From the IMG/VR virus record IMGVR_UViG_3300046524_000217, positions 1-22,518 of that record: 22,518 bases of DNA. One strand, given 5' to 3'. Below are positions 99 through 17,057 of this stretch, piece by piece. The notes beneath the pieces were generated by a model. It worked only from the letters and a program-made list of their open reading frames with translations. It was not told where the DNA came from and made no database searches. The stretch is from a virus. The first letter of the stretch is position 1, and each line of letters opens with the position of its first letter. A program made the translations under genes and the position numbers.

Positions 99-716
99 AT
101 GCAAAAGTGGCTTGTAAGCTATATCAGCGCGGTACTTGTTATCGGGGCAGTCGTTATAGTTCAGAACGTTTGGGATCTCAGCAAATCGGATTGGGCCGCT
201 TGGGCGCAAGCTGTGGGGGCGACGATAGGTATAGGGATTGCCATCTGGATTCCACGCAATCAAAGGCAATACGAGGCGGATAAACTGCGGGAAGCGGTCT
301 TGCACGAAAAGGCTCGCGTCGTTACCAATGCGCACGAAATCGCAAAGGATGCGCTGATGGCACTGGAGGGTGCCAGTACGTATATGGCGAACTACAATCC
401 TGAGCTCGAGTTCTCCCACACGACGGATCGGTTGGATATAGCTCAGGCGATGCTTAAGGACGTGATGAATACCGAAATCATGCCCGTGGTCCTCAGGCGA
501 ATTTTGCGAATCAGTCGTCAAGTCACACTCACAATTAGAGATGTTCGATTGCGGCATGGAAACGAGGATGCTACGGTCGGAGACGTTATGAAGCGCAATA
601 TGACTGTGCGCATGGAACGCGCAACCGAGAGCCTTAACCAGATTCGCGAGCACGCCGAAAAGGCGAAGGCGGATTGGCGAGAAGTTCGGGACCTCAACAA
701 ATCGGTCTGGAGGTAA
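99..716 (+). CDS. two-TM membrane protein with cytoplasmic helical tail, unknown function
   Basis: The 205-residue product has two hydrophobic segments near residues 6-24 and 31-51, joined by a short loop. A long charged region rich in Lys, Arg, Glu and Ala follows and probably forms cytoplasmic helices. The ATG at 99 is supported by an AGGGA-type site 6 bases upstream. I recognise no enzyme motif and no family. It stands alone on the plus strand and converges with the leftward operon that ends at 746. Its bases are visibly more A/T-rich than those of the structural genes to the right, which suits a cargo or host-derived gene. An exclusion-type membrane protein is possible, but that is only a guess from topology and position. 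Confidence 0.7.
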   Translation: MQKWLVSYISAVLVIGAVVIVQNVWDLSKSDWAAWAQAVGATIGIGIAIWIPRNQRQYEADKLREAVLHEKARVVTNAHEIAKDALMALEGASTYMANYNPELEFSHTTDRLDIAQAMLKDVMNTEIMPVVLRRILRISRQVTLTIRDVRLRHGNEDATVGDVMKRNMTVRMERATESLNQIREHAEKAKADWREVRDLNKSVWR

Positions 717-745: not shown

Positions 746-1111
746 TCACGCTACTTTTCTCGCGTCGTAGATGACCCATGTGATGATCTCGGTGCGCTTG
801 GTCTTGCTGATCTTCGGTGCGCCGTTCTTGTCGTGTGACACGCCGCGGCACTTGACGACGTACCCTTCGTAAAGACCGGTCGTGCGGGCAAGCGAGATCC
901 ATTCGTCACAGAAGTGAGGCGCATCGAACGCCGGAGATACCTGCACCGGCTTCATTGCCGCGAAGATCTCGGTTGCCACTTCTTCGATGGCTGCGCGGTA
1001 TTCGACTTCGGTCAGAAGCACCTTCGTTTTGGGGTCGCGCGTCGGCACGCGCTTTTCAGCACGCTCGCGCGCGATCTGCATCGAGGATGCAAAAACACAA
1101 AATCCGCTCAT
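746..1111 (-). CDS. hypothetical phage protein, last gene of leftward operon
   Basis: The 121-residue protein begins MSGFCVFASSM. I chose the ATG at 1111 because GGAG lies 8 bases before it; an upstream in-frame TTG at 1126 overlaps that ribosome site and is less likely. The protein is mixed alpha/beta with a Lys/Arg-rich C-terminal third (KISKTKRTEIITWVIYDARK) and no recognisable motif. It is the most distal gene of the operon transcribed leftward from the operator-covered promoter at 1767-1795, so it should be repressed in the lysogen. I cannot assign a function. Confidence 0.65.
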   Translation of the reverse strand: MSGFCVFASSMQIARERAEKRVPTRDPKTKVLLTEVEYRAAIEEVATEIFAAMKPVQVSPAFDAPHFCDEWISLARTTGLYEGYVVKCRGVSHDKNGAPKISKTKRTEIITWVIYDARKVA

Positions 1112-1186
1112 ATATAGAGACTCCAAAAAGAGTGGGCCAGCACAGCGCCCACAAAGTCGCGGCCCTGGGAGCCGCCGGACCGAGAG

Positions 1187-1766: not shown

Positions 1767-1795
1767 ATTAAACACGATGTTTATACTTCAGTCAA
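1767..1795 (-). promoter_or_regulatory. leftward early promoter (PL-like)
   Basis: Read on the minus strand, TTGACT (1795-1790) and TTTAAT (1772-1767) are separated by exactly 17 bases, a near-consensus sigma-70 promoter. It faces the four-gene operon that starts at 1728. The -10 overlaps operator 1769-1783 and the -35 overlaps operator 1793-1807, so repression by the CI-type protein is expected. Confidence 0.75.
1769..1783. promoter_or_regulatory. repressor operator (leftward control region, site 1)
   Basis: TAAACACGATGTTTA is an inverted repeat with perfect 6-base arms around a 3-base centre. It overlaps the -10 of the leftward promoter in the same register as the operator at 4337-4351 does for the cro promoter. 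It is probably bound by the repressor encoded at 3276-4268. Confidence 0.7.
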
Positions 1796-1807
1796 ACAAA
1801 ATGTTTA
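1793..1807. promoter_or_regulatory. repressor operator (leftward control region, site 2)
   Basis: CAAACAAAATGTTTA matches the same 6-3-6 inverted repeat with one arm mismatch. Its centre is 24 bases from that of the first site, so it overlaps the -35 of the leftward promoter. The pair would allow cooperative binding. Confidence 0.65.
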
Positions 1808-1969: not shown

Positions 1970-1996
1970 AAAAAAAGCCCGCTCGGGGCGGGCTTT
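1970..1996 (-). terminator. intrinsic terminator of the protease gene (and perhaps cI)
   Basis: AAAGCCCGC (1974-1982) pairs with GCGGGCTTT (1988-1996) across a 5-base loop. On the minus strand the stem is followed by a run of seven T (1976-1970). It lies about 35 bases beyond the stop of the minus-strand protease gene. Confidence 0.8.
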
Positions 1997-2031
1997 AGCG
2001 TAGATGTGTGGCGTTTCACCGGTGCATCAAT

Positions 2032-3054
2032 TTATTCAGGTCCGGAATCCGGGTCTGTGACCCGGCCGAGGCTGCCGAAGGTGAGTGCGATCGAGCGTAG
2101 CTGTTGAGCTTGCTCGCTGTCTGAGCCGTCTTGAGGCTGGCTTGCGCCATCGCCTCCTTGACCCGGTTCGGGGTTTGGTACGTTCTCATCGGTCGCTCCG
2201 TCAGTAGGATCTTGGCTTGCTTCTTGTTGTCCGCCGAGTGTGAACAGCTTAACGCTTGGCGGATCATTTTCAAATGTTGGTTTACTCGAATCGTATAACG
2301 CTTGGCTGATTTGTGCCAGGAGGCCTTCTGGTCTCCCGACGCGCACAAACACACTCGATGCTTCCTTGCGGTCGATAACAAATCCGTGCGAAGGGTAACC
2401 GATAATCAACTTATCCAGCCCTTCAGCACGCAAATTATTACTTTTCGAGTTCAGCCGCTCGCCATAGGCGAATGCAATGTCAGTTGCCCGCTGCATCTCG
2501 GCAAGGCGCATAGGATCAATTTGAGCAAAAACCGGGCCAAACAGCCCCGTCGCCAGTTTCGTTGAGATGTCGGACGCTACGCGCGTCGACAGCGCGGCCT
2601 TGCGCGTCAGTTCCATCAGGTATGAGCGGAAAGCAGTCATCGCCTGATTTTGCAAATAATTCACCGCTTGAAAGATGTCGAGTCCCGAGTTTCGACCGAC
2701 GATCTCGTCCATCTTTTTCACTTGCACGTCCAACGGGCCCAATTCGCTCTGATCGTCGAGCCAAAGATGGGCTGCGCCTATGCATATGAGAGTGCCGGCG
2801 CTTTTACATAGCCACGGAATCAAGGCTTCGAACTGGTCATAGTCGTGCTGCAGCGCCCGAGCAATCCGAAATCCGGAATGCGGATCGCCGCCCGGCGTTG
2901 AAAGGACGAGCAACAGCTTTTTCGACTTCTTGTTGCGCAATTCGTTGCATACCAGATCATAGCCGCTCCTACTGATCTGCCCGGAATAAACGAGCACGTC
3001 GATCGACGCATTGTCCGGTTGCTTCGCTGGAGCGCCTTCCACTTGTTCATTCAT
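2032..3054 (-). CDS. SDH/ClpP-fold serine protease-like protein in rex position
   Basis: The 340-residue protein looks like a member of the serine dehydrogenase proteinase (SDH_sah) group of the ClpP/crotonase fold. Visible marks are LSTPGGDPHSG (residues 51-61, the substrate-binding loop of ClpP/SppA-type proteases), KSAGT with probable nucleophile Ser85, and SELGPLDVQ (about 103-111), all in family order. A helical region follows. The last ~70 residues are Gln/Asp/Gly/Pro-rich and probably disordered. I chose the ATG at 3054 because GGGGA lies 5 bases upstream; a TTG at 3066 is possible. No signal peptide or membrane span is seen, so it should be cytoplasmic. It lies downstream of and co-oriented with cI, inside the operator-bounded region, as rexAB do in lambda. 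Expression in the lysogen and a role in exclusion or host interference are inferences. Confidence 0.75.
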   Translation of the reverse strand: MNEQVEGAPAKQPDNASIDVLVYSGQISRSGYDLVCNELRNKKSKKLLLVLSTPGGDPHSGFRIARALQHDYDQFEALIPWLCKSAGTLICIGAAHLWLDDQSELGPLDVQVKKMDEIVGRNSGLDIFQAVNYLQNQAMTAFRSYLMELTRKAALSTRVASDISTKLATGLFGPVFAQIDPMRLAEMQRATDIAFAYGERLNSKSNNLRAEGLDKLIIGYPSHGFVIDRKEASSVFVRVGRPEGLLAQISQALYDSSKPTFENDPPSVKLFTLGGQQEASQDPTDGATDENVPNPEPGQGGDGASQPQDGSDSEQAQQLRSIALTFGSLGRVTDPDSGPE

Positions 3055-3275
3055 GTTGGTCCCCAAGATTTCTTCTTAACGGCAGCGCGGTGGAAAAGTT
3101 AAGGCGTAGTCTGGTTATTTTTGCCGACCTTGCCGTCGAGCTGACGCGTTGGATGCGCTGTCCAGATCACAAATTTGACTCTGCACTCTGCTGCTTGGCT
3201 TTGAGCCGCTGTGCCTGCTTGGACGACAATCTTTCTTTTTTGAGGGCTGCAAATCCAGCCTAGTTCAAAGCGTCT

Positions 3276-4268
3276 TCAGCCTGGTCTCCAAGCGGACGGC
3301 TTCGCGATCCATCCAACGTAGTGGATCTTCTCAATGTTGTCCTTATCGATCGCGATGGGTGCGTGCGTCTCATTAACCGAGATCAGGTGCACCCGTCCCG
3401 CGCGTTCGTAAAGAAACTCCTTCACCATGACCCGACCGTCTTTCGATTTGACCAAGACCTCGTCGCCGGGCTCGACTACATGGTTTGGCTCGACAACCAC
3501 GAATTCCCTGTCCTTAATTCGCGGGCGCATTGAGTCGCCTACGCAGCGCAGGGCGTACGCGTCTTTGTCTTCTGTCGGTGCGGCAACGAACCCCTCGCCG
3601 TATCCGACGGGATAATCGATGTCGACAAAATGTCCGTTATCGCCCAATTGAGCAAACCCCACCACTGGCACGCCTTGCCATTTAAGATTCGTGATCGGGT
3701 CGAACGCGTCCGCGTACCGTACGGCCACACCGGGCTCTCCCTTGCCCTTGAGCAACCACACCGAATTCACGCCATAGGTATTCTGTATCGCAACGGCTTG
3801 AACCATCGAAATATCGGGACCAATACCGCCCAGCCAGAGTGCAGCCGTTTCAACGCCAACGCCCGCAACGGACGCCAGTTCGGTTGGCGACACTTCTTTA
3901 TCACTGAGTGCCCTGCGCAGACGGTGCACGGAAGTTTCCCCGGCAGGCAGTGTATCGCGGTCGGATTCAGTCTGCGTTTTGATTACTGGTTTCTTTCGGT
4001 CACTTTTCGGTGAATCGGACCCAGCGCGGCCATGGTGGGTCGCTGTGAGATTCGCGGCCATCATCGGCGGTTCGCCAGTTTCCAGCCAAGTGGCGCTGCA
4101 ACCGACCTTCTTTTGCGCATCGAGCATCCCGCCCTTGGAGATGCCGCGGCGTTGCCAATTATTAACCAGTTGCTCTGAAATATTTAAAAAATTGGCGAGC
4201 TTCGCCGGCCCCTCGATTTTGTGGAGGAGACGAGCGGCTTCGTATAACCGTTCCATTGTCGCGTGCAT
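3276..4268 (-). CDS. cI: CI/LexA-type prophage repressor with two HTH modules and S24 peptidase domain
   Basis: The 330-residue protein has a first helix-turn-helix region (about 18-65, with LANFLNISEQLVNNWQRRG), a charged linker (about 80-110), a second HTH-like region (about 113-175, with PTELASVAGVGVETAALWL) and a C-terminal S24 domain (about 198-325). Catalytic Ser246 in GDSM and Lys283 in VMVKEF are intact, so RecA-stimulated self-cleavage is expected. The likely cleavage region reads FAQLGDNG, with Leu-Gly where Ala-Gly is usual. Family repressors are normally 210-240 residues long; the extra length comes from the second HTH. The frame stays open to 4688, but that extension would be antisense to cro. 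The ATG at 4268 or at 4256 begins the first HTH; neither has a clear ribosome site. It should bind the operators at 1769-1807 and 4289-4351. Confidence 0.9.
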   Translation of the reverse strand: MHATMERLYEAARLLHKIEGPAKLANFLNISEQLVNNWQRRGISKGGMLDAQKKVGCSATWLETGEPPMMAANLTATHHGRAGSDSPKSDRKKPVIKTQTESDRDTLPAGETSVHRLRRALSDKEVSPTELASVAGVGVETAALWLGGIGPDISMVQAVAIQNTYGVNSVWLLKGKGEPGVAVRYADAFDPITNLKWQGVPVVGFAQLGDNGHFVDIDYPVGYGEGFVAAPTEDKDAYALRCVGDSMRPRIKDREFVVVEPNHVVEPGDEVLVKSKDGRVMVKEFLYERAGRVHLISVNETHAPIAIDKDNIEKIHYVGWIAKPSAWRPG

Positions 4269-4324: not shown

Positions 4325-4353
4325 TTGCGGCAAAACTAAACGTGGTGTTTAAT
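4325..4353 (+). promoter_or_regulatory. rightward early promoter (PR-like) of cro
   Basis: TTGCGG (4325-4330) and TTTAAT (4348-4353) are spaced by 17 bases. The -10 is identical to that of the leftward promoter. The predicted start, about 6-8 bases after the -10, falls at or just before the cro ATG at 4362, so the message would be leaderless or nearly so. Operator 4337-4351 overlaps the -10. Confidence 0.6.
4337..4351. promoter_or_regulatory. repressor operator (OR1-like)
   Basis: TAAACGTGGTGTTTA has 5 of 6 arm positions matching and shares the outer bases of the leftward operators. It continues into AT to make the cro -10 (TTTAAT), exactly as operator 1769-1783 does on the minus strand. Confidence 0.65.
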
Positions 4354-4361
4354 GGCGTCTC

Positions 4362-4574
4362 ATGAACACACCCACCTTCTCCCCCGAATCCGACCGGGCT
4401 CTCATTGAGCGGCTCGGCGGCCCCGCGCGCGTCGCCAAGCTTCTCGGCTTCAAGAGAGGTGGAACCCAGCGCGTCCACAACTGGAAGGTTCGCGGAATCC
4501 CCGCCAGCGTCCGCTTGCGTCGCCCCGACATCTTCAATGACGACGGCGGTGGCGTTTTCTCGAGAGCTGCCTGA
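4362..4574 (+). CDS. cro: Cro-like repressor
   Basis: The 70-residue protein contains an HTH typical of Cro/YdaS-type proteins: residues about 13-55, LIERLGGPARVAKLLGF then RVHNWKVRGIPASVRLRRPDIF, in which the first block forms the helix pair and VHNWKVRGIP leads out of recognition. It is divergent from cI across the operators, as in lambda. No Shine-Dalgarno site precedes the ATG at 4362, and the promoter -10 is only 9 bases upstream, so translation of a leaderless message is likely. It should bind the same operators and favour lytic growth. Confidence 0.85.
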   Translation: MNTPTFSPESDRALIERLGGPARVAKLLGFKRGGTQRVHNWKVRGIPASVRLRRPDIFNDDGGGVFSRAA

Positions 4575-10799: not shown

Positions 10800-10830
10800 T
10801 TGCGACTCTCTTTGGCGGAAGGAAATGAAC

Positions 10831-11967
10831 ATGTCGGGGTTCATGCATAAATATTACGACTGGGCGTCGTTCGAAGTCTTTGTGAAAGAGCTATACGAAG
10901 GCGACGGGGAAGTTACGGTACAGCGCGACGTAACCGAGGTCGATCGCTACGGTGCGAGGCGACAGACCGACGTCAAGATCGTCCGCCGATCGCGCTTTCA
11001 CAAGTTTACGACGCTTGTCGAATGCAAGCGATGGAAGGAACCTGTGGGGCGCGATCGAATTGACGTTCTTGCATCGAGCATTGAGGCGTTGAATGCAAAC
11101 AACGGAGCCATATTCACGACGTCCGGTTTCGAGGAAGGTGCAATCGCCTACGCCAAAGGAAAGGGCATTGATCTTTTTGTTGTGCGGGACCTGACGCCAG
11201 AAGAGTGGGGTCTTCCAGGTCGACACATTTCATTTTATCTGCACGTGAATGCAGCGGAATTCACAGAGATAGGGTTCGCAGCGCAAGCGGTCATGTTGAT
11301 AGACGATACGCCGGGCGAAAAAAAGATTGATCTTGCCTTGAATCCTGACTACGCGACCGACCCGGACCATGATCTGTTCTCGGTTAAGACTGGTGAACGG
11401 GGCATGAATCTCGTCGGGATTTTGGGTGATGCTCACGGCATCATCCTGTCCGAGATTGCCAAGTCAGTTGGCCTGTTTGAGGGAGGGAAGGACTTGACAT
11501 ATGAGATAAATGCTCGATGCGAGGTCGATCTCACTGCAACGCCGTTCCATCAGCTCCGGCTCCCTGAGTGTGCGGTTCGGATTGAGCGCATTGGGTTCAA
11601 GCTTCGCGCCCACATCAGCCAGTCGGAAATTGCAGTTGACCGAGGTGCGAATCTAGACTTCGCAGTGATGGTGGAAAGCTATGTTTCGGACGAACGGCTA
11701 CTCGCTCATAGACGCAAGGGAGATGCGGGTATAGTGTTTGCGGAGGCGCGATCGGCGGCCGGAAAGCCTGACGAAGACAGCATGCCACTTAAAAATGGAT
11801 CTCTTATGAACGTCCAGTTTTCGCCGTGGACAGGCCTAGGCGAAAAAAAAGCCGATCGCGTCGGCGTTACTTCGCAGCTGCTCCGAGTCATTGTTGAGAC
11901 GGAGGGCAAGAAGCCTCGGCTCTCTTTCGTTTCGGTACCGCCCGCCGGCACATCGGTCACACAATAA
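10831..11967 (+). CDS. Mrr-type PD-(D/E)XK nuclease with unknown C-terminal region
   Basis: The 378-residue protein has an N-terminal Mrr/restriction-endonuclease-like domain (about 8-125): YDWASFEVFVKELYE, RQTDV with Asp47, VECKRW with Glu64-x-Lys66, then NNGAIFTTSGFEEGAIAYAK and LFVVRDL. All catalytic positions are present. The remaining ~250 residues form a beta-rich region I do not recognise. AAGGA lies 7 bases before the ATG at 10831; the ATG at 10825 is too close to it. It follows brnA by 31 bases, so it may share that transcript. Mrr-type enzymes cut modified or foreign DNA; no methyltransferase is nearby. The gene is more A/T-rich than its neighbours, and a strong terminator closes it. 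Confidence 0.75.
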   Translation: MSGFMHKYYDWASFEVFVKELYEGDGEVTVQRDVTEVDRYGARRQTDVKIVRRSRFHKFTTLVECKRWKEPVGRDRIDVLASSIEALNANNGAIFTTSGFEEGAIAYAKGKGIDLFVVRDLTPEEWGLPGRHISFYLHVNAAEFTEIGFAAQAVMLIDDTPGEKKIDLALNPDYATDPDHDLFSVKTGERGMNLVGILGDAHGIILSEIAKSVGLFEGGKDLTYEINARCEVDLTATPFHQLRLPECAVRIERIGFKLRAHISQSEIAVDRGANLDFAVMVESYVSDERLLAHRRKGDAGIVFAEARSAAGKPDEDSMPLKNGSLMNVQFSPWTGLGEKKADRVGVTSQLLRVIVETEGKKPRLSFVSVPPAGTSVTQ

Positions 11968-13315: not shown

Positions 13316-14974
13316 ATGGAATGGAAGACAAGCTGCCTCGACTGGGCCGACCGGCTCAAGCGAGGCGAGTCCATCATTCCGCCGCCAATTTTTCCCGAGC
13401 AGGCCGAGCAGGCGCTTCTGATCTTCAAGCAACTGAAGATCGTCGATGCGCCTGGCAGCCCGACGTTCGGTGAGTCATGCGCTCAGTGGGTTTTCGATCT
13501 GGTGGCGTCGATTTTCGGCGCGTACGACCCCGACAGTGGTCGGCGCCTGATCACCGAGTGGTTCATCTGCCTGCCGAAAAAGAACTCGAAGTCGACGATC
13601 GCGGCCGGGATCATGATGACCGCGGTCATCCTCAACTGGCGGCAGTCTGCCGAGTTCGCAATTCTGGCGCCGACGATTGAGGTTGCGCAGAACAGTTTCA
13701 GTCCCAGCCGGGACATGGTGAAGCACGATGACGAGCTCGACGAGCTGCTGCAGGTTCAGACGCACATCAAGACGATCACGCACCGGAACAGCGGCGCGAC
13801 GCTGAAGGTCGTCGCGGCAGATTCAAATACCGTCGGTGGCAAGAAGAGCGTCGGCACGCTGGTCGACGAGCTTTGGCTTTTCGGCAAGCAGGCCAACGCC
13901 GAGAATATGCTGCGCGAGGCGATCGGCGGCCTGGCATCGCGCCCGGAAGGCTTCGTGATCTATCTGACGACCCAGTCCGATGATCCGCCGGCGGGCGTGT
14001 TTCGCCAGAAGCTGCAGTACGCGCGCGATGTGCGCGACGGCAAGATCGAGGACAAGCGTTTTGTCCCGGTGATCTTTGAGCACCCGCCGGAAATGGTGGC
14101 GAGCAAGCGGCATCTGAAGGTCGAAAACCTCGGAATGGTCAACCCGAACCTCGGCTATTCGGTTGATCAGGAGTTCCTCGAGCGCGAGTTCAAGAAGGCG
14201 CAGACCGAGGGCGAGGAGTCGTTCCGCGGCTTTCTCGCAAAGCATGCAAACGTCGAAATTGGCCTTGCGCTGCGCTCCGATCGTTGGGCCGGCGCGGAAT
14301 TCTGGGAAGACGCAGGCTCGGTGCCGAAGCTGACGCTTGATGACCTGATCGAGCGGTGCGAAGTGATCGACGTCGGCATCGACGGCGGCGGTCTTGACGA
14401 CTTGCTCGGGCTGGCGGTCGTTGGTCGCGAGAAACTGACACGCCGCTGGTTGTTTTGGGCGCACGCATGGGCGCATCCATCCGTGTTCGAGCGCCGCAAA
14501 GAAGTTGCACCGACACTCCGCGACTTTGAGAAGGAGGGCGACCTCACCGTCGTTGAGCAGATCGGTGACGATGTGCGCGACGTCGCTGACATTGTCGCAA
14601 TCGTCTATGCCTCCGGATTGCTAGATAAGGTCGGCGCAGATCCGGCCGGGATCGGCGGCATTCTCGACGCGCTGGTCGAGGCCGGCGTCCCTGAAGAGCT
14701 CGTCATTGGTATTTCGCAGGGCTGGAAGATGTCCGGCGCGATCAAGACGACCGAGCGGAAGCTTGCCGAAGGCGTGCTCGTGCACGGCGGCCAGCGAATG
14801 ATGGCGTGGTGCGTCGGCAATGCGCGCGTGGTGCCGGTTGGAAATGCCGTGAATATCACCAAACAGGCCAGCGGGACGGCAAAAATCGACCCGCTTATGG
14901 CTGGTTTCAACGCCATAACCCTGATGAGTCTTAATCCGCAGTCCGCACCTACACCGGGAATCGTTATCCTATGA
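13316..14974 (+). CDS. terL: terminase large subunit (ATPase/nuclease)
   Basis: The 552-residue protein has the HK97-type TerL plan. The N-terminal ATPase has Walker A LPKKNSKST (86-94) and Walker B TLVDEL (181-186). The C-terminal RNase H-like nuclease starts near IDVGIDGGGLDDLLG, with Asp356 and Asp361-362 as metal ligands. It drives DNA into the prohead and cuts it. Length is normal for the family. The portal ATG overlaps its stop. Confidence 0.95.
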   Translation: MEWKTSCLDWADRLKRGESIIPPPIFPEQAEQALLIFKQLKIVDAPGSPTFGESCAQWVFDLVASIFGAYDPDSGRRLITEWFICLPKKNSKSTIAAGIMMTAVILNWRQSAEFAILAPTIEVAQNSFSPSRDMVKHDDELDELLQVQTHIKTITHRNSGATLKVVAADSNTVGGKKSVGTLVDELWLFGKQANAENMLREAIGGLASRPEGFVIYLTTQSDDPPAGVFRQKLQYARDVRDGKIEDKRFVPVIFEHPPEMVASKRHLKVENLGMVNPNLGYSVDQEFLEREFKKAQTEGEESFRGFLAKHANVEIGLALRSDRWAGAEFWEDAGSVPKLTLDDLIERCEVIDVGIDGGGLDDLLGLAVVGREKLTRRWLFWAHAWAHPSVFERRKEVAPTLRDFEKEGDLTVVEQIGDDVRDVADIVAIVYASGLLDKVGADPAGIGGILDALVEAGVPEELVIGISQGWKMSGAIKTTERKLAEGVLVHGGQRMMAWCVGNARVVPVGNAVNITKQASGTAKIDPLMAGFNAITLMSLNPQSAPTPGIVIL

Positions 14975-16326
14975 GCGAAGCATTCAAGGTAGCACAAGCG
15001 AAGGCCCGATTGCCGGGTTCCGCTGTGCTTAACGCCTGGCGCGCTCAACACGGGCCGGAGACGACAGGTCGCGTGAATAATCTCAATGAGACGCGCCAGA
15101 GCCTGACGGTTCAGGAGCTGGCGAATATCATCGGCGGCGGCGCAATCAGTAACGCCGGACCGGTCGTCAACGAGACGACCGCGATGAAGGTGTCCGCGGT
15201 CTACGCGTGCGTTGCTCTGATCGCGGGCGCCATCTCCACCCTCCCGATGCCGGTGTATCAGCGCACAGCAACGGGCCGCGAGCGTGTCGAGCATCCGTAT
15301 TGGTGGCTCCTGAACGAACAGCCTGAGTCGGATGTGTCGGCAGCGGTGTTCTGGGAATACATGGTTGCTGCGCGACTCTTTTATGGCGACTGTTTCGCTG
15401 AAATCGTGCGCCCGTCGTTTCACAGCAATACGGTGACGGCGTTCAGGGCACATCATCCATTGCGGGTGTTCCCATTCCGCGACAGCCGCGGCGAGCTTTA
15501 TTACCGGGTGCAGCCGTTGGTCGGCGCCGAATACATTCTGCATCCAGCCGACATCATTCACATTCCTAGCCTCGGATACGACGGCATTCGTAGCCCGAGC
15601 CCGATCACCTACGCGGCTCGGCAGTCGGTGGGGACGGCGCTCGCGGCAGCGGAGTACAGCGCGCGATTCTTTTCGAATGGCGCCCGTCCGGATTTCGCGC
15701 TGACGACTGCTGGGAACATGACCGAGGAGCAGGCTAAGCTTCTGCGCGCGACTTGGGGCGAGCGCCATAGCGGCGTCGCGAATTCGCATCTCCCGGCGAT
15801 TCTCACCGGCGGATTGCAGATCAAAGAATTGACCATGTCGCCGGTCGACGCGCAGATCCTCGAGACGTCCAAGTGGGATCTCGAGGAAATTTGCCGCATC
15901 CTGGGCGTCCCTCCGTTCATGGTCGGGTCTACCGAAAAAACGACGTCGTGGGGCAGCGGCATTGAGAACATGAGCCGTGGCTTCGTGAAGTTCACGCTGC
16001 TGCGCGACCTGGTCAAGTTCAATCAGGAATTCAACCGGAAACTCTGGCCTACCCGGCAAAAATTCTTCGTGGAATTCGATGTTTCCGGCATGGAGCGAGG
16101 CGATCTGAAGAGCGAGAACGATGCGCTCCGTATCGCACTCGGTCGTGCGGGTGAGCCCGGCTGGATGACGCAGAACGAGGTGCGTCACCTCAAACTACTG
16201 CCGCCTGTTAAGGGTGGAGACGTCGTGAACAGCGGTATAGCGCAGACCGCCAATGTCACCGAACCGGCGCCAAAGCCGGATTCGGCGCCGGCGCCGGACG
16301 GGCAACCAGACCAAGGGGCAACATGA
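14971..16326 (+). CDS. portal protein (HK97 family)
   Basis: The 451-residue protein has the HK97 portal signatures KVSAVYACVALIAGAISTLP, HPYWWLLNEQPE and the C-terminal block SKWDLEEICRILGVPPFMVG, with WGSGIENMSRGFVKFTL. It forms the dodecameric DNA channel at one capsid vertex. ATGA overlaps at both ends show coupling with TerL and the protease. The last ~40 residues are Pro/Ala-rich. Length is usual. Confidence 0.95.
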   Translation: MSEAFKVAQAKARLPGSAVLNAWRAQHGPETTGRVNNLNETRQSLTVQELANIIGGGAISNAGPVVNETTAMKVSAVYACVALIAGAISTLPMPVYQRTATGRERVEHPYWWLLNEQPESDVSAAVFWEYMVAARLFYGDCFAEIVRPSFHSNTVTAFRAHHPLRVFPFRDSRGELYYRVQPLVGAEYILHPADIIHIPSLGYDGIRSPSPITYAARQSVGTALAAAEYSARFFSNGARPDFALTTAGNMTEEQAKLLRATWGERHSGVANSHLPAILTGGLQIKELTMSPVDAQILETSKWDLEEICRILGVPPFMVGSTEKTTSWGSGIENMSRGFVKFTLLRDLVKFNQEFNRKLWPTRQKFFVEFDVSGMERGDLKSENDALRIALGRAGEPGWMTQNEVRHLKLLPPVKGGDVVNSGIAQTANVTEPAPKPDSAPAPDGQPDQGAT

Positions 16327-17057
16327 GCAAGCTGATCAAGCTGCTGGCGAGCAATCGCCGGCCGGTGAAGCCGTGCGCGTTCGACGTGCAGGGCGAAGAA
16401 ACCACTATCTATATCTACGATGCGATCGTTGCAGACGACGACACGGCGGAATGGTGGGGCGGTGTTTCGGCACAAACGCTCGTGCCGCAAATTCGCGGCA
16501 TCAAGGGCGGCACGGTTCATCTGCGCATTAATTCGCCGGGCGGCGACGTGTTCGCGGCGCAGGCTATCGTCGCGGCGATGCGCGACACCGGCGCGAAGGT
16601 TATTGCTCATATCGACGGCGTCGCGGCGAGCGCAGCGACCGTGATTGCGTCGGCCGCCGATGAGGTCGAAATGTCGGACGGCGCCATGTACATGATTCAT
16701 TGTGCGTGGACTGTGGCTATCGGCAATTCGGCCGACCTCGCCGCTACGTCGGCGCTGCTGGACAAGACTGACGGCGTGATCGCGGGCCAGTATGCAAAGC
16801 GCAGTGGCAAGAGCGCGGATGACATGAAGGCGCTCATGAGCGCCGAGACGTGGTTCACGGCGGAAGAGGCTGTTGAGATCGGCCTCGCCGACCGTGTCGC
16901 CGAGAATGCGCCGAGGGCGCAGGCATCGTGGGATCTGAGCGCCTACGCCAACGCTCCGAAGCCGCAAGAGCCCGAGCAGATTGATGCCATCGCAGCAGAA
17001 CACCGCGAACGTCAGCAGCAGCGCATGAAGATGCTGAATCGCATTTCCCATCAGTGA
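16323..17057 (+). CDS. ClpP-type prohead protease
   Basis: The 244-residue protein is a ClpP-fold head maturation protease: RINSPGGDVFAAQAI (69-83), DGVAASAATVIASAA with nucleophile Ser103, and MIHCAW with His126. It cleaves the capsid scaffold domain. The C-terminal ~35 residues are Glu/Gln/Arg-rich and probably bind the prohead. HK97 itself uses an unrelated U35-type protease; many Burkholderia phages use this ClpP type. It overlaps the portal stop. Confidence 0.9.
   Translation: MSKLIKLLASNRRPVKPCAFDVQGEETTIYIYDAIVADDDTAEWWGGVSAQTLVPQIRGIKGGTVHLRINSPGGDVFAAQAIVAAMRDTGAKVIAHIDGVAASAATVIASAADEVEMSDGAMYMIHCAWTVAIGNSADLAATSALLDKTDGVIAGQYAKRSGKSADDMKALMSAETWFTAEEAVEIGLADRVAENAPRAQASWDLSAYANAPKPQEPEQIDAIAAEHRERQQQRMKMLNRISHQ

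Follow-up and report, generated by a model that had tools for sequence, protein, structure and literature searches.

Gene content of the rex-like slot

The window, i.e., the complete 22,518 nt of the IMG/VR virus record IMGVR_UViG_3300046524_000217, carries on its minus strand a CI-type repressor gene of the S24 (LexA-like) family and, 221 nt downstream of it, a gene for a ClpP/SDH-fold serine protease-like protein. The 3' end of the protease gene is overlapped by a small gene, and an intrinsic terminator follows (Table 1). The original prediction had placed the protease in the rex position between OL and OR, co-oriented with cI, and both statements are borne out. Repressor and protease share the same strand, and the 13-bp palindrome AAACN5GTTT, of which the 22.5-kb window contains three copies vs. 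0.18 expected, occurs twice to the left of the protease and once to the right of the repressor, as expected of OL and OR. The protease gene is thus found where rexAB lies, downstream of cI in the predicted lysogenic operon, and a search for a terminator between the CI repressor and the protease of the window found none. The higher A/T content relative to the structural genes was also correctly noted, the GC content being 54% over 2001-3000 vs. 60-62% over 13-22 kb. The strong terminator thought to close the protease gene is indeed present, reading from 1996 to 1974, but it follows the overlapping small gene, which ends at 2016.

Table 1. Features of the repressor-protease region (positions in the window).
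Feature	Position	Strand	Remarks
OL-like operator palindromes AAACACGATGTTT and AAACAAAATGTTT	1770-1782, 1794-1806		exact AAACN5GTTT
Intrinsic terminator, operon end	1974-1996	-	9-bp stem with 6 GC pairs, T-run; 19 nt past the small gene
Small overlapping gene, 57 aa, MRTYQTPNRVKEAMAQASLKTAQTASKLNSYARSHSPSAASAGSQTRIPDLNKLMHR	2016-2189	-	+1 frame relative to the protease; 158-nt overlap
GGAG Shine-Dalgarno-like site	2196-2199	-	6 nt 5' of the ATG of the small gene
ClpP/SDH-fold serine protease-like gene, 340 aa	2032-3054	-	ATG at 3054, TAA 2034-2032; Ser85 is the nucleophile candidate
cI-protease intergenic stretch	3055-3275	-	GGGGA ribosome-binding-like site precedes the protease ATG
CI-type S24 (LexA-like) repressor	3276-4256	-	start 4256, stop ends 3276; Peptidase_S24 63 bits; phrog_4 transcriptional repressor
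OR-like operator palindrome AAACGTGGTGTTT	4338-4350		exact AAACN5GTTT
Cro-position gene, divergent	4362-4574	+	YdaS-like / phrog_8008 DNA-binding protein

The STPGGD loop (residues 52-57) and the KSAG motif (residues 84-87) of the protease were both found intact, as originally described, and the position of the latter makes the numbering of the nucleophile as Ser85 correct. Pfam and the structural model agree with the assignment as a serine protease-like protein. The score against SDH_protease (PF01972) is 35.1 bits, above the gathering cut-off of 31.3, and that against PHROG_21683, a phage family of unknown function, is 332 bits. Against NCBIfam NF047768 (SDH family Clp fold serine proteinase, an equivalog) the protein scores 45.5 bits, with a curated cut-off of 250, and it is much too distant for this equivalog. 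A PADLOC scan of the protease gave no match to any known exclusion family, and a sequence search of the PDB with the single protease sequence returned nothing. The AlphaFold2 model, built on a family alignment of 75 sequences (mean pLDDT 84.6), comprises a ClpP/crotonase fold, with a pLDDT of ~97 for most of residues 21-270, and a low-confidence C-terminal tail of ~65 residues, which is probably disordered. Among solved structures the model comes closest to ClpP and PH1510-N (Z up to 14.5), and among viral models to giant-virus “serine dehydrogenase proteinases”; SppA, suggested earlier for structural comparison, is present among its Foldseek matches. All 75 members share Gly55, Gly56, Lys84, Ser85, Gly87, Asp109, and His223. 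Asp109 is located 24 residues past Ser85 and His223 far downstream; in the ClpP (S14) triad, the His is found ~25 residues past the Ser. Since these catalytic-type residues are invariant, the protease is likely an active enzyme.

The small gene overprints the region that codes for the presumably disordered tail of the protease. Its product is modeled as one long helix (28 residues, 8-35) and one short helix; a structure search gave no significant fold match, and comparison with Pfam and PHROGs no convincing family. Neither the Klebsiella phage record nor any of the three E. coli prophages inspected has it annotated. The earlier reading of a protease gene alone in the slot is right with respect to fold, nucleophile, and slot, but it overlooked the conserved small gene in the +1 frame, with which the protease forms a two-gene unit.

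Several other genes of the window and of a related contig were noted. To the left of the OL-like sites lie a gene for a phrog_20424 protein of unknown function (749-1126, minus strand) and one for a weakly holin-like, probably membrane-anchored protein (99-716, plus strand). A second metagenome contig with an identical protease gene (L001) reaches further left and contains two ORFs (14740-15732 and 15947-16681), named by inspection as integrase-like and truncated SelB-like, which suggests an integrated prophage with the attachment site region nearby. Between the early genes and the terminase region of the window, a gene on the plus strand (10825-11967) encodes a protein of 380 aa that contains an Mrr_cat restriction endonuclease domain (60 bits) and is a possible second defence-type cargo. 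The second ClpP-fold gene of the window (16323-17057, plus strand) encodes an ordinary head maturation protease (phrog_94), with a role unrelated to that of the rex-slot protease.

Conservation of the overlapping gene

Relatives of the protease were gathered from viral contigs, genomes, phages, and plasmids, and amount to 94 distinct family loci when clustered at 85% identity. Pattern scans with the single protein yielded just the identical contig; the family was recovered by alignment-based scans. At the 3' end of the protease gene, 83 of 91 members possess an out-of-frame small ORF, nearly always in the +1 frame, which begins inside the stretch that encodes the tail and usually extends past the protease stop by a few dozen nt. 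The length of the +1 ORF was dropped as proof of a gene because synonymous shuffles keep the frame open as well (mean 67 vs. 79 codons). This openness is largely due to the acidic composition of the tail and the case for the small gene is, therefore, built on tests of Shine-Dalgarno sites, similarity, and substitutions.

An ATG preceded by a Shine-Dalgarno site occurs in the +1 ORF of 67 of the 91 members vs. 22.8 expected from synonymous shuffles, and the site is AAGGAG in 15 members (2.1 expected), while the +2 frame, used as a control, has such a start in one of 91. Of 120 betaproteobacterial pairs, 119 align better in their +1 products than in their protease tails, with median Z values of 5.2 and 0.6, respectively, although not all of these pairs are independent, and the same trend is seen in five further clades, in two of them more weakly. 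Substitutions in the protease core, counted over 15 pairs that are likewise not all independent, peak at codon position 3 (621/274/2004 for positions 1/2/3), whereas those in the overlap peak at frame-0 position 1 (306/217/196), which is the wobble position of the +1 frame; the alternative frame thus appears to be under purifying selection. Of 84 members, 61 have a terminator behind the small ORF, at a median of 16 nt past its stop, compared with 11 of 252 random positions. Taken together, start with Shine-Dalgarno site, alignability, substitution periodicity, and terminator are four lines of evidence which indicate that the +1 ORF is a real gene.

Small-gene profiles of one clade pick out the same ORF in other clades. 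At locus L081 the homologous small gene is a separate ORF that starts 4 nt before the protease stop (a 4-nt overlap); at L122 the small ORF is arranged in the same way, yet it is not retrieved by the profiles. A search for orphan copies of the small gene by alignment-based scanning was abandoned since the alignment is insufficiently conserved, and tblastn searches for such copies returned just the known phage copy or nothing. Similarity to the small-gene profile (E 0.02) was also noted at L117 for an ORF that ends in PPPTLRDALMRASMKSETS and is located ~4.0-4.3 kb past the protease gene, at a place with no protease 3' end; this ORF is possibly a stray relative, or a chance match.

Genetic neighborhoods of the protease family

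At 21 of the 94 loci an S24 repressor gene is located upstream of the protease, co-oriented and within 2 kb, and in 17 of these 21 cases within 600 bp; no S24 gene was found within 2 kb downstream of the protease or on the opposite strand at any of the 94 loci. No terminator between repressor and protease was detected in 16 out of 16 loci. About three quarters of the members with enough flanking sequence lack an adjoining S24 repressor. When repressor linkage is treated as a trait on a tree of 93 members, 15 changes are required, at least 10 of them, independent of each other, on well-supported branches, which indicates that the association with the repressor was gained or lost repeatedly. Among 5,426 complete E. 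coli genomes, 48 contain the protease family. In the three E. coli lambdoid prophages that were inspected, the protease directly follows a LexA-family repressor and precedes the early-left genes, which include cIII and kil (N is annotated in one of the three), and it occupies the rex position there.

Other members of the family are found beside an integrase gene, in a filamentous phage, or beside pairs of an HTH protein and an M78 peptidase; in these pairs, matches to the CBASS regulator CapP were obtained for three of the peptidases and a match to CapH for one of the HTH proteins. These homes are likewise cargo or defence-type sites. Many members adjoin neither an S24 repressor nor an HTH/M78 pair, and a conserved upstream partner of the protease was rejected as a candidate since the neighbors are heterogeneous apart from CI and the HTH/M78 pairs. 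At L127 (1216-6556) the member is situated beside a strong CapP match (211 bits), followed by E2, ThiF (E1), and DUF6527 genes, and this region looks like a defence island. Remote SDH-type proteins on Rhizobium and Methylocystis plasmids (L007, 4734-5630; L008, 4737-5630) are encoded close to multiubiquitin-(E2)-ThiF-(DUF6527) gene sets or as the last gene of such a set. A link with ubiquitin-like conjugation, considered on account of the remote SDH proteins in these multiubiquitin-E2-E1-DUF6527 operons, was not adopted, because among the family loci L127 is the only one near a full set of such genes. At two loci (L038, 9953-11044; L143, 9932-10761) the protease gene is split into two ORFs, so that the gene is evidently sometimes broken. 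A literature search for the protease family by name gave no report on its function and no published phenotype for any member.

Possible function of the protease and its partner

Since the slot recurs across relatives, an accessory role of the protease, either in exclusion or in control of the lysogen, is likely. That exclusion genes occupy this slot is already well described: RexAB, the 933W kinase, and 434 Hex are repressor-linked (PMC3564112), as is BstA, and the cI-n region has been called a hotspot (PMC8585504). The rex genes of lambda lie downstream of cI and are expressed in the lysogen, and the protease has a similar position, known here from sequence. Both lambda RexAB and the RexAB-type system of the Pseudomonas putida prophage P1 resemble the present pair in being two-gene prophage modules, but in P. 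putida RexA binds DNA and RexB is a membrane effector (PMC12894663), whereas the locus described here encodes a protease of the ClpP fold together with a small helical protein. A sequence link between this module and RexAB-type proteins was not found; as far as the libraries contain Rex models, Rex-family matches were nil for the protease (Pfam, PHROGs, PADLOC, and NCBIfam) and for the small protein (Pfam and PHROGs). BstA is similar in that one family occurs in many prophages, often directly after the repressor and with a terminator behind it, but it is an unrelated protein that localizes to where phage DNA is replicated, and it comes with a self-immunity element, aba (PMC8585504). Hex of phage 434 shares the rex slot, co-transcription with the repressor, and reportedly partly overlapping reading frames; however, it is an unrelated protein of 158 aa that overlaps the repressor gene (PMC3564112), while the small gene overlaps the protease gene. 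The olg1/olg2 genes of Pseudomonas phage Fc02 (PMC9936078) are also same-strand overlapping genes on a lysogenic transcript, one of them with exclusion activity, but they are located upstream of the repressor and their proteins are unrelated to the protease and the small protein. The entries PF01972, PHROG_21683, and the PGAP “SDH family Clp fold serine proteinase” have the fold, GG-loop, SAG nucleophile, LGPxDxQ, and YPxH in common with the protease; these libraries assign them no function, however, and the overlapping small gene is unannotated in the records inspected. Lit, a protease of the E. coli prophage e14, cleaves a host protein in the presence of a phage peptide and thereby excludes phage. 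Like the rex-slot protease it is prophage-encoded, but it is a metalloprotease, whereas the rex-slot protease has a ClpP fold.

In view of Lit and of the exclusion precedents in the slot, a two-component exclusion module is favored. The locus consists of repressor-linked prophage accessory genes, i.e., one of known fold and one unannotated overlapping gene, and the pair, which recurs in scores of prophages, is probably a phage-exclusion module. We propose with moderate confidence that it is a two-protein module expressed in the lysogen, a ClpP-fold protease with a small helical partner, for which phage exclusion, inferred from the genetic position, is the likeliest function; that the protease is cytoplasmic and belongs to the proposed lysogenic operon is part of this explanation. 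Somewhat more tentatively, the pair may represent a new protease-based two-component exclusion system that is widespread in proteobacterial prophages, including those of E. coli. Its second component would have escaped annotation owing to its location in the +1 frame across the 3' end of the protease gene, and the low-complexity tail of the protease would be a by-product of overprinting.

In its distal part, the lysogenic operon of this lambdoid-type prophage would thus read cI, protease, small helical protein, terminator, and transcription from the repressor promoter would provide repressor, protease, and small protein in every lysogen, the latter translated from its own ribosome-binding site within the protease 3' end. 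The small partner may keep the protease quiet or direct it, by inhibiting, targeting, or triggering it; an infection signal would then free the protease, which would cut a host or phage protein, and the infection would be aborted. Gene order, fold, the conserved nucleophile, conservation of the overlapping gene, the shared terminator, and recurrent recruitment beside repressors are evident from the sequences; expression, proteolysis, and exclusion are presumed, as is regulation or adaptation of the protease by the small protein, for which the link is a genetic one.

The main rival to exclusion is a Hex-like control of lysogeny, in which protease and partner tune the stability of the repressor or prophage induction, comparable to 434 Hex and to ImmA-type peptidases acting on XRE repressors. 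Hex, co-transcribed with the 434 repressor, blocks its RecA-stimulated cleavage (PMC3564112), and the present family adjoins S24 repressors or HTH/M78 peptidase pairs. Nevertheless, we consider such control unlikely: S24 repressors already cleave themselves, and some members of the family adjoin an integrase, belong to a filamentous phage, or lie at loci where no repressor was found nearby, and these varied homes make a fixed repressor partner unlikely. Even less probable is an addiction system in which a toxic protease, neutralized by a short-lived small protein, stabilizes the prophage; the two-gene unit with its translational overlap and small downstream partner and the mobile, patchy distribution of the family would suit it, but no known toxin-antitoxin family was hit by the protease in Pfam, PHROGs, PADLOC, and NCBIfam or by the small protein in Pfam and PHROGs. 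General lysogenic conversion, with the protease processing a host protein for the fitness of the host and unrelated to phage, ranks lower again, since the repeated recruitment into repressor-linked slots known for exclusion genes argues against it, even though SDH-type proteases are widespread and remote relatives adjoin ubiquitin-like conjugation genes on plasmids. That the +1 frame merely supplies an alternative C-terminus through programmed frameshifting is highly improbable, for although the long overlaps all share this frame, ATG and Shine-Dalgarno sites are enriched, many members have +1-frame stops shortly upstream of the ATG of the small gene, and at L081 the homologous protein has an ORF of its own, with a start 4 nt ahead of the protease stop, which also speaks against an extension by frameshifting.

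Few phage genes are expressed in every lysogen; accessory genes linked to the repressor belong to these few, and they are a proven source of exclusion systems. The small second gene described here is hidden in the +1 frame and unannotated in the inspected records. For annotation this means that cloning or mutating an “SDH/SppA” gene alone may cut through a second gene. The overlap furthermore provides a well-sampled case of gene overprinting, in which the separate-gene arrangement persists in relatives such as L081. Such a pair in the rex-like slot, whose protease family occurs in 48 of 5,426 complete E. coli genomes, would lend itself to direct tests in laboratory E. coli.
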